Shown piece by piece: positions 4,556 to 6,932 of a DNA stretch of 22,688 nucleotides. How positions within the stretch are numbered: the stretch's first letter is position 1; each line of letters begins with the position of its first letter. A program made the position numbers and the translations under genes. Under the pieces are notes generated by a model, which saw only the letters and a program-made list of their open reading frames with translations, had not been told where the DNA came from and did no database searches. Origin of the DNA: a virus; IMG/VR virus record IMGVR_UViG_3300030118_006385, positions 1 through 22,688 of that record; one strand, given 5' to 3'.

Positions 4556-5011
4556 ATGCAACTCCCCAAAAATGGCGTGGCCAAAGACATTCGTTCATAC
4601 GTAGGATCATTATTTATCTTCTTGTTTGTTATAGGAATTATAATTACTTTATTGCAATTTCCTGTACTTGATTCAAACAAAGAAGTTGTAATGATGCTCA
4701 TCGGAACAATATCAGCGTCCATACCAATAATTATATCAAGTATTACTGGAACCAAACCAGATGATGTAAATGCCTTGAAGGGTGAGATAGATAAAAAGAA
4801 TCATCAGATTGATTTACTTGTTGCTGCAAAAGACAGGTTAGAAGATATGGTAATACAATTACAAAAACAAATGCTTGATAACCAAGATGATGTAATGGAC
4901 AAGATAATCCTCAAAGCTGCATTAGACTATGATGATAGAGCTCAAGCAAAGGCTATCATGAAAAAATGTAAATGTGGTAAAAACGAATGTAAATGTGAAG
5001 GAGAATCATAA
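4556..5011 (+). CDS. Two-helix membrane protein with coiled coil and Cys-rich tail
   Basis: The 151-aa product has two hydrophobic helices (about 17-35 and 43-63), then a charged helical, coiled-coil-like region (about 72-110), then a CKCGKNECKC tail (138-147) giving C-x-C-x4-C-x-C. The layout fits an inner-membrane hairpin with a cytoplasmic coiled coil ending in a possible metal- or Fe-S-binding knot. It could be a membrane-remodelling or holin/pinholin accessory protein, but it is separated from the M15 peptidase by six small genes. The stop overlaps the next start by 1 bp (TAATG). Family unknown to me. Confidence 0.75.
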   Translation: MQLPKNGVAKDIRSYVGSLFIFLFVIGIIITLLQFPVLDSNKEVVMMLIGTISASIPIIISSITGTKPDDVNALKGEIDKKNHQIDLLVAAKDRLEDMVIQLQKQMLDNQDDVMDKIILKAALDYDDRAQAKAIMKKCKCGKNECKCEGES

Positions 5012-5270: not shown

Positions 5271-5357
5271 ATGTATCACGGAGGAAAAATGAACAGTAAA
5301 AAAAAGGCTAAAGGAAAAGCAAAACCTTCTATGAAGAAGAAGAAAAAGAAAAAGTAA
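5271..5357 (+). CDS. 28-aa Lys-rich peptide
   Basis: A 28-aa peptide in which half the residues are Lys, beginning MYHGGKMNSKK and ending in a run of seven lysines. An alternative start at ATG 5289 (22 aa) is preceded by GGAGG (5280-5284) at 4-nt spacing, one of the few clear Shine-Dalgarno-like sites in the window. However, that GGAGG also encodes the GG of MYHGGK, which I recall from similar tiny phage peptides. It sits in a 113-bp gap between larger genes, which supports coding. The charge suggests binding to DNA or acidic lipids. Moderate confidence that it is translated. Confidence 0.5.
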   Translation: MYHGGKMNSKKKAKGKAKPSMKKKKKKK

Positions 5358-5363
5358 ATTATT

Positions 5364-5606
5364 ATGAATTTAGGCAGAACTGCTTTATTTTACAGAAGCA
5401 ACCCGAAGGCGAGAGCCAAGAAAGCTGCTTATGATAGCGTGTTTCAGAAAAAAAAGAAACAAGTTAAAAAGCGTGTAGAGTGTAATGCCTTTAATCGTAA
5501 ATTTGGAAAAAAAGGAGACAATATGGACTGTTCTCACAAAAACGGTACTATTGTTTCAGAACACAGAAAAAAAAATAGAGCTAGAGGAGGAGCAAAAAAG
5601 AAATGA
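5364..5606 (+). CDS. 80-aa basic conserved phage protein (DxSH motif)
   Basis: The 80-aa product has YRSNPKARAKKAAYDSVF (10-27), a Lys-rich linker with VECNAFNRKFG (38-48), and NMDCSHKNGTIVSEHRKKNR (53-72). The order RTALxYRxNPKARAKKAAYD, then NxDxSHxxGxIV, then KKNRARGG is one I recall from many Bacteroidota and marine phages as a conserved protein of unknown function. The His-containing segment loosely recalls HNH-type elements, but no complete HNH motif is present, so nuclease activity is not claimed. It overlaps the CDGSH-type gene by 4 bp. Confidence 0.78.
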   Translation: MNLGRTALFYRSNPKARAKKAAYDSVFQKKKKQVKKRVECNAFNRKFGKKGDNMDCSHKNGTIVSEHRKKNRARGGAKKK

Positions 5607-5683
5607 AATCAAAACCATGTGTATGCGGAACTACGCAGAATCCATTAGGGCTTTGTGACGGTTCTCATTTAAATAATAAATAA
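5603..5683 (+). CDS. 26-aa CDGSH-type mini iron-sulfur protein (putative)
   Basis: This gene is short but striking: KPCVCGTTQNPLGLCDGSH (4-22) carries C6, C8, C18 and H22, the 3Cys-1His ligand set of CDGSH (NEET) 2Fe-2S domains. The canonical signature is C-x-C-x8-C-x3-H; here the middle gap is nine residues, so one residue is inserted. Canonical domains are about 39 aa, so this would be a minimal version that may need to dimerise. It starts at ATG 5603 within a 4-bp overlap with the upstream stop and ends 1 nt before the next ATG, which supports a real gene. The role is unknown; redox or iron handling is inferred from the motif only. Zinc binding is an alternative. Confidence 0.72.
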   Translation: MKSKPCVCGTTQNPLGLCDGSHLNNK

Positions 5684-5684
5684 A

Positions 5685-5981
5685 ATGCAAACATTAATAA
5701 TAGTAACTATAATATTATTAATTGTATTAATTACTATCAATATATCAGCTATTTGGCTTGCCAAAAAAGGATATACGAGAGATGATAATAATAATATGAT
5801 TCCTGATATTATAGAAGAAAAATTTGTAGAACTTAAAAAAGATGTTTCTATAACAGTTGATAGGGTTGGTCAAGAATTGAAAGATGTAGGTAAAGCTTTG
5901 TCTCAGGTTGGCAATCAACTAGGGGATTTACCTAAAGCTGTTCAAGGAAAAACCAGACCAGGAAGAAAACCAAAAAAATGA
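5685..5981 (+). CDS. Membrane-anchored helical protein with EF-hand-like loop
   Basis: A 98-aa product with one N-terminal hydrophobic helix (about 3-25), a DDNNNMIPDIIE segment (33-44), a long amphipathic helix (45-88) and a basic tail. The segment matches an EF-hand/dockerin-type calcium loop: D33, N35, N37, I39 (backbone), D41 and E44 at positions 1, 3, 5, 7, 9 and 12. The layout of one membrane anchor and a helical domain resembles spanin-like or holin-accessory proteins. It sits directly upstream of a holin-like gene and an endolysin, overlapping the holin-like gene by 4 bp. A lysis-related role is inferred from context. Confidence 0.75.
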   Translation: MQTLIIVTIILLIVLITINISAIWLAKKGYTRDDNNNMIPDIIEEKFVELKKDVSITVDRVGQELKDVGKALSQVGNQLGDLPKAVQGKTRPGRKPKK

Positions 5982-6130
5982 TCGAGGATTTGAAGATATA
6001 CGGTTTAAGTATCTCAGCAGTTGGGACAAGCATATTTCATGATCTCAACCCAATATTATCAACTTTTGTATTAATTGCAACGTTGATATATACAATAATA
6101 AATATTGTACATAAATTAAATAAAAAATAA
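5978..6130 (+). CDS. 50-aa putative holin
   Basis: This product has two hydrophobic segments (about 8-22 and 26-45), a short HDLNP turn between them and a Lys-containing C-terminus (KLNKK). Size, two predicted membrane helices and a charged tail are typical of class II holins, which form membrane lesions that let the endolysin reach peptidoglycan. Its stop is followed immediately by the ATG of the M15 peptidase (6131), a holin-endolysin arrangement. The start overlaps the upstream stop by 4 bp. Holin families are too diverse to name one by eye. Confidence 0.68.
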   Translation: MIEDLKIYGLSISAVGTSIFHDLNPILSTFVLIATLIYTIINIVHKLNKK

Positions 6131-6505
6131 ATGAAACTCAAATACTTTAATATTCAAGATTTCGATTCTCCTGATGACCCAGGTAGCGGAACCTTGATGG
6201 ATAAAGAATTTTTGTTACTTCTTGATAAAGCAAGAGAAATATCTGGAACTCCATATATTATAAACTCAGGAGTACGCACACCCACACATAACAAGTCTGT
6301 TGGTGGAAAATCCAACTCAGCACATTTGTCTACAAGACAAGGAGGACCCTGTGCAGTTGATATAGCTGTTAAAGGTTCAAGAGATAGGTTTTTAATTTTA
6401 AAAGGACTTATAGAGGCTGGGTGCCATAGAATAGGCGTTGCAAAATCGTTTATACATGCAGATGGGGCAAAAGATTTAGATCCAGAAGTAACTTGGGTAT
6501 ACTAA
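6131..6505 (+). CDS. M15-family peptidase, putative endolysin
   Basis: A 124-aa zinc metallopeptidase of the M15 (VanY/DacC-like, M15_3-type) fold, which cleaves peptide bonds in peptidoglycan stem peptides. Visible features are SGVRTPTHN (46-54) with R49, SAHL with H65, VDIA with D77, and FIHADG with H109. H65, D77 and H109 are the expected zinc ligands; W122 is near the C-terminus. The size matches single-domain phage and M15_3 proteins. There is no signal peptide, so export would depend on a holin. It is flanked by a 50-aa holin-like gene and a 140-aa GTA-type holin-like gene, forming a lysis cassette. Confidence 0.9.
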   Translation: MKLKYFNIQDFDSPDDPGSGTLMDKEFLLLLDKAREISGTPYIINSGVRTPTHNKSVGGKSNSAHLSTRQGGPCAVDIAVKGSRDRFLILKGLIEAGCHRIGVAKSFIHADGAKDLDPEVTWVY

Positions 6506-6509
6506 TGAA

Positions 6510-6932
6510 ATGTCACAAGATAAAAAGAAATTTAAAGACACAGCGGTAGGAAAATTCTTACTAAATAAAATACCAAACGTTGTTGGTGCAATTGCAGATC
6601 AATCTCCAGTAGGTAATGTCATACAAGCTATTATAGGCGGTTCTGATATGTCCGACCAAGACAAAGAGCTTGCCTTAAAGAAGCTAGAGCTAGAAAGAGC
6701 TGAAATGGATGGTGTTACGAGGAGGTGGCAGGCAGACGCCAGAAGTGATTCTTGGCTTGCCCAAAACGTAAGGCCATTAACATTAGCAGTTCTAACTATA
6801 GCTTTTATTGGAGGATGGTATATGCAAATAGACGGGTTGTCAGTAGTGAAAGAATTACTCTTTGTTGTGTTTGCAGGTTATTTTGGAGGAAGGTCCTACG
6901 AAAAGGTTATGGGTAATAAAAACCACAAGTAG
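6510..6932 (+). CDS. GTA-type 3TM holin-like protein
   Basis: A 140-aa product with a soluble helical N-terminal half, then VTRRWQADARSDSWLAQNVR (69-88) followed by hydrophobic helices at about 90-104 and 112-127. The RWxAD...SDSWLxxNVRP motif preceding membrane helices is typical of the holin family named for gene-transfer-agent release (GTA_holin_3TM). Only two clear helices are visible in the C-terminal part; the stretch 14-43 is only moderately hydrophobic. It follows the M15 peptidase by 4 nt, so the endolysin is bracketed by two holin-like genes. It is the last gene before a new promoter. Confidence 0.83.
   Translation: MSQDKKKFKDTAVGKFLLNKIPNVVGAIADQSPVGNVIQAIIGGSDMSDQDKELALKKLELERAEMDGVTRRWQADARSDSWLAQNVRPLTLAVLTIAFIGGWYMQIDGLSVVKELLFVVFAGYFGGRSYEKVMGNKNHK

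Follow-up and report, generated by a model that had tools for sequence, protein, structure and literature searches.

Organization of the locus

The window analyzed here is the complete 22,688-base viral record IMGVR_UViG_3300030118_006385, from a marine phage, which includes GroEL and GroES genes, a late cassette, a terminase gene and a portal-like gene. The terminase is most similar to that of a podovirus from Manatee Spring (64%), followed by those of Flavobacterium and Cellulophaga phages, and these relatives make a bacteroidete the likely host. The phage-encoded GroEL-like (531 aa) and GroES-like (84 aa) genes occupy positions 548-2394, and the same pair is located near the terminase gene of podovirus MW202828.1. 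A basic protein specified at 3654-3950 matches phrog_220, 'minor head protein and DNA pilot' (E 2.3e-16), and also phrog_7595. The relevant part of the late cassette is organized as follows.

5364..5606, + strand: basic 80-aa protein (phrog_6437, E 1.6e-19, unknown function)
5585..5592, + strand: AGGAGGAG, possible ribosome-binding site as judged from the sequence, 10 nt 5' of the ATG
5603..5683, + strand: x9 micro-CDGSH gene, 26 aa, MKSKPCVCGTTQNPLGLCDGSHLNNK
5618..5668, + strand: ligand motif C-x-C-G-x-T-x4-G-x-C-D-G-S-H, read from the sequence
5685..5981, + strand: 98-aa protein, hydrophobic stretch at the N terminus, remainder coiled-coil-like (phrog_25296, E 9.8e-5, unknown)
5978..6130, + strand: 50-aa holin-like protein (Phage_holin_2_2, E 0.004, below cutoff; phrog_920 holin, E 8.6e-4)
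6131..6505, + strand: M15 peptidase, endolysin (PF08291, E 2.1e-11, above cutoff; phrog_894 endolysin, E 2.8e-20)
6510..6932, + strand: GTA-type 3TM holin (phrog_3427 holin, E 1.7e-16; GTA_holin_3TM, E 0.015, below cutoff)

The open reading frame at 5603-5683 and its sequence agree with the preliminary description of a 26-residue peptide with residues C6, C8, C18 and H22 and an exact CDGSH string. The ligand motif has no second match of its kind within the window. The spacing between the second and third cysteines (x9) is indeed one residue longer than the canonical x8 spacing, but is the defining feature of a large class instead of an oddity of this phage. The start codon overlaps the stop codon of the upstream 80-aa gene in an ATGA sequence (5603-5606) and the downstream gene begins at 5685, one base past the micro-CDGSH stop codon. 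Translational coupling to both neighbors, as described earlier, therefore is plausible.

Two further products of the cassette are of note. The membrane protein encoded at 4556-5011 terminates in KCKCGKNECKCEGES, a CxC-x-CxC-type tail, and relatives of this protein at two other viral loci (L002 and L009) retain similar cysteine-rich tails, which possibly form a second metal site in the cassette. A 28-aa lysine-rich reading frame at 5271-5357 (MNSKKKAKGKAKPSMKKKKKKK from an inner start) is one of several tiny basic reading frames in the cassette.

Conservation and selection of the micro-CDGSH gene

The full motif C.C.{9}CDG[STA]H did not arise in 300 dinucleotide shuffles of the window, and CDG[STA]H arose 0.013 times per window in these shuffles. 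The bare ligand spacing has a chance expectation of 0.13 in the window and is not significant by itself. The case for the gene thus derives from its conserved relatives and not from the spacing. As pattern scans select for the ligands, conservation was judged on loci that were recruited independently of the peptide and on codons outside the motif. Relatives were recruited via neighboring genes and DNA patterns rather than via the 26-aa peptide, and 80 viral loci were gathered by their relatedness to the holin. The micro-CDGSH reading frame was present in 19 of the 80 cassettes, with all four ligands in every copy. When the six frames of the 80 loci were searched with the family profile, the 19 carriers scored 46.7-55.1 bits and the next sequence scored 8.1 bits; with nothing in between, copies are either intact or absent. 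Loss of a ligand or disruption of the frame in relatives, which had been suggested as the outcome that would speak against the gene, did not occur at any of the 80 loci. The cassette set had a dN/dS ratio of 0.14, which rose to 0.20 when codons outside the motif were considered, and the ligand codons have undergone many silent changes among relatives. A chance reading frame is ruled out by the all-or-none pattern among relatives, the dN/dS value and the lack of the full motif in shuffled sequences. The segment at 5603-5683 is a real, strongly conserved gene under purifying selection. This upholds the earlier view of a phage mini-protein with CDGSH-type ligands in a late cassette, here one for lysis.

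The loci with the nearest holin relatives (L001-L006, L008 and L009) do not possess the gene, which therefore is accessory, and its absence from most related cassettes indicates that it is dispensable. Isolated phages were searched by tblastn with one fused protein of 120 aa and five shorter queries of 26-60 aa, which were x9 proteins or protein ends, and no match was produced; within that sensitivity, the carriers seem to be uncultured phages.

Distribution of x9 micro-CDGSH sequences

Viral contigs were scanned with the pattern CxCG-x8-CDG[STA]H, which corresponds to the x9 spacing, and at least 120 stretches were recovered. Nearly all of those listed are real reading frames, mostly of 22-45 residues, and two (L082 and L140) are clearly due to chance. 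When bacterial and archaeal genomes were scanned for the same x9 pattern, at least 120 stretches were again recovered, and nearly all of those listed are genuine short reading frames or protein ends. Among the matches listed, chromosomal short reading frames occur in Polaribacter, other marine Flavobacteriaceae, Paenibacillus and others, with marine Flavobacteriaceae as the most frequent carriers. The motif thus occurs commonly among marine viral contigs and is located on the chromosome in many bacteria, and is not peculiar to the window phage. The gene was found in 13 of 199 Flavobacteriaceae species sampled, and these 13 carriers have genomes of 1.2-2.7 Mb, with the exception of the centre genome (4.1 Mb). 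Opitutaceae-type genomes possess tandem x9 pairs, an arrangement that fits a dimeric unit.

The x9 and x8 spacings are two discrete sequence classes. Among the matches listed, the residue two before the third cysteine is glycine in 98% of viral and 90% of bacterial x9 sequences, and is proline in 117 of 117 x8 sequences. Position 1 in x9 sequences usually is lysine, glutamine or proline. The x9 micro-CDGSH family is defined by the motif C-x-C-G-x-[TS]-x4-G-x-C-D-G-[ST]-H with invariant ligands in a reading frame of ~22-45 residues, and the window peptide conforms to this definition. Neither PHROGs nor NCBIfam has a model for the micro proteins, and open-access PMC literature, outside which most subscription journals lie, yielded no paper on a phage CDGSH protein or on CDGSH in conjunction with YceI. 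The x9 micro-CDGSH proteins of 22-30 residues apparently form a widespread, undescribed family. Micro-CDGSH reading frames with x8 spacing likewise are frequent in viral contigs (L202-L321) and are without an M15 neighbor.

The x9 motif also is attached to larger proteins. It forms the C-terminal tail of an XkdF-like head protease (PF14550) at L108:1914-3677 and also at L127, L137 and L191, and of a PSP1-domain protein at L344:2554-3732, with L411 looking alike. It further occurs with a WYL_2 protein. The head protease tails, together with the late operon, could suggest that the window peptide carries iron or forms a metal site within the virion, as proposed in the preliminary description. However, the tails of other phages bear on those proteins only, the window phage has no fusion to a structural gene, and free bacterial copies are chromosomal, so that this role is very improbable.

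Genomic neighborhoods in viruses and bacteria

Among the matches listed for pattern-recruited viral loci, 45 of 86 small x9 reading frames have an M15 endolysin gene no more than 700 nt away; for the 49 loci with an M15 gene, 12.7 close pairs would be expected by random placement compared to the 45 observed. M15 identity was confirmed for three distant members and for the window protein. When the 700-nt rule was applied to a profile search, an M15 gene was near 44 of 82 x9 minis and none of 52 x8 minis among the matches listed, a contrast that is indicative since x9 loci were the source of the search profile and the metagenome contigs are partly redundant. Relatives of the 98-aa protein (5685-5981) also are present in many x9 loci. 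The phage neighborhood points to a lysis cassette. The strong link with M15 and 3TM holin genes, which x8 minis do not share, raises the possibility that the peptide is a lysis-specific partner that modulates the holin or the M15 endolysin; metal handling for the zinc peptidase and redox sensing for lysis timing would be examples. This role is improbable: approximately half of the x9 minis among the matches listed are not near an endolysin gene, most holin-recruited cassettes do without the gene, bacterial copies have no adjoining lysis genes, and the cassettes may merely be sites that tolerate late accessory genes.

The bacterial copies have a different context. Among the matches listed, a YceI-family gene is on the same strand in 50 of 81 single-copy bacterial x9 loci, and in 49 of these 50 it ends <85 nt upstream of the first cysteine codon. 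Only three of the YceI assignments were tested against Pfam, with one of the three matches being partial and weak, and the rest were made by blastp clustering. In two further loci (L355 and L374), both in Flavobacteriales MAGs, x9 and YceI are fused. The fusion at L355:905-1564 is complete, with a micro-CDGSH motif, a hydrophobic stretch and a YceI domain (E 1.3e-22) within 220 aa. At L374:7624-7998 x9 also is joined to YceI via a hydrophobic stretch, although this copy is short and matches YceI weakly. An FMN_red-type gene is directly downstream in 13 bacterial loci among the matches listed, followed in some by a pirin gene, and HxlR, MarR and DoxX genes recur beside bacterial copies. The neighborhood of YceI, FMN reductase, pirin and HxlR/MarR genes points to redox or envelope stress. 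A prophage origin of the bacterial copies was considered and rejected for most, given their shared YceI operon context and the single copies in the Polaribacter genomes examined.

Relationship to CDGSH/CISD proteins

CISD proteins are characterized by the 17-residue consensus PhiCXCXX(S/T)XXXPPhiCDG(S/T/A)H, and also possess a lid-proline P motif (GP-Phi-X-Phi), an N-terminal strand and a beta-sandwich dimer module, with a core that includes position 1, P11 and position 12 (Lin et al., 2011; PMC3174974). The window peptide carries the CISD ligand set of three cysteines and one histidine (C-x-C ... C-D-G-S/T/A-H). The 3Cys-1His order, the C-x-C-G start, S/T at position 7 and the C-D-G-S/T-H end are common to x9 sequences and CISD proteins (mitoNEET, MmCISD 3TBN and RsCISD 3TBM; PF09360). 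Of the residues described as universally conserved in PMC3174974, all except the proline are kept in x9 sequences (C2, C4, S/T7, C13, D14, G15, S/T16 and H17). In contrast, the window peptide is one residue longer than the consensus, has glycine in place of proline and lacks a hydrophobic residue at position 1, and as only five residues precede the first cysteine there is no N-strand, P motif or beta-sandwich. The x9 micro proteins of 22-30 residues also are much shorter than PcCISD, which at 53 residues is the shortest CISD crystallized in PMC3174974. A search with zf-CDGSH (PF09360), as recommended in the preliminary description, gave 14.4 bits (E 0.046) for the window protein against a gathering cutoff of 29.5, and up to 16.6 bits for other micro members. 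With these departures from the consensus, which include the proline and position 1, its Pfam score and the missing sandwich, the window peptide by definition is no canonical CISD, and its earlier placement in the CDGSH/NEET (CISD) family does not hold as worded. Since the proline and hydrophobic position 1, which build the dimer core of CISD proteins, are lost, a stably bound cluster cannot be taken for granted.

Profile comparison by hhalign nevertheless aligned the x9 profile with canonical CDGSH sequences with a probability of 96.9, and the best two of 177,635 PDB sequences were the CISDs 3tbm and 3tbn (E 0.1 and 0.21). Moreover, an 80-aa tandem CDGSH protein (L340) that exceeds the Pfam cutoff at 61.2 bits begins with an x9 motif, followed by an x8 motif, which places the x9 loop inside a true CDGSH protein. 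Sequence comparisons thus support either descent of the x9 loop from, or convergence on, the CDGSH loop. The two x9 motifs per chain in Opitutaceae-type genomes and the x9 plus x8 motifs of L340 resemble type 6 tandem CISDs (Miner2/MmCISD type), but in x9 tandems the linkers are short and beta-strand sequence is not recognizable. The x8 micro-CDGSH reading frames of viral contigs (e.g., MKKCTCGNSKSKPSCDGSHKQKEK) are similarly phage-encoded and very short with the same ligands, and differ from x9 in their canonical spacing, invariant proline and lack of an M15 endolysin link. AlphaFold modeling gave a middling mean pLDDT of 72.5 for a 30-aa relative, for which Foldseek detected no match, and a poor value of 45.9 for the tandem form.

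A mononuclear zinc or iron site, in which the peptide would fold on a structural metal like a zinc knuckle and bind a partner protein or nucleic acid, is a tentative alternative that we consider unlikely. A peptide of 26 residues with no beta-sandwich and a score below the Pfam cutoff would suit such a site, many neighboring proteins are basic, and the motif is added to unrelated proteins (XkdF-like protease, WYL_2, PSP1 and YceI) as zinc modules are. However, the first pair is C-x-C and not the usual C-x2-C around one zinc of knuckles and ribbons, and the conserved T, D, G and S/T residues track the CISD cluster loop and exceed what four zinc ligands need. The x9 motif within L340 and the redox genes beside the bacterial copies also argue against a zinc site.

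Proposed role of the micro-CDGSH peptide

The window peptide is CDGSH-like in sequence and probably binds metal, most likely [2Fe-2S]. We somewhat favor the interpretation that it is a phage member of the x9 family whose metal loop most likely holds a labile [2Fe-2S] cluster, with a redox or iron context in bacteria and late deployment with lysis genes in the phage. The peptide would be essentially one CDGSH cluster-binding loop from which the classical beta-sandwich and dimer core are missing, and the three cysteines and one histidine would hold the metal site, perhaps as a dimer. The YceI operon context of the bacterial relatives suggests that a cytosolic partner for redox or iron handling acts at the inner membrane. 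The phage gene probably was acquired from a marine bacteroidete, a direction of transfer that we infer. Expressed late with the lysis genes, the peptide might, speculatively, buffer iron or the redox state near the membrane until lysis. It is quite doubtful that the 26-residue loop on its own forms a redox-active [2Fe-2S] protein without the CISD fold and acts as a redox or metal switch for lysis with the holin and M15 endolysin.

Members of the x9 family are missed by Pfam, NCBIfam and PHROGs because they are too short. The window peptide is a first candidate for an Fe-S protein tied to phage lysis cassettes, and the YceI operon provides a testable lead to the function of the x9 family. Should the peptide bind a cluster, it would rank with the smallest Fe-S proteins in nature and would reveal which portion of the CDGSH fold is required.
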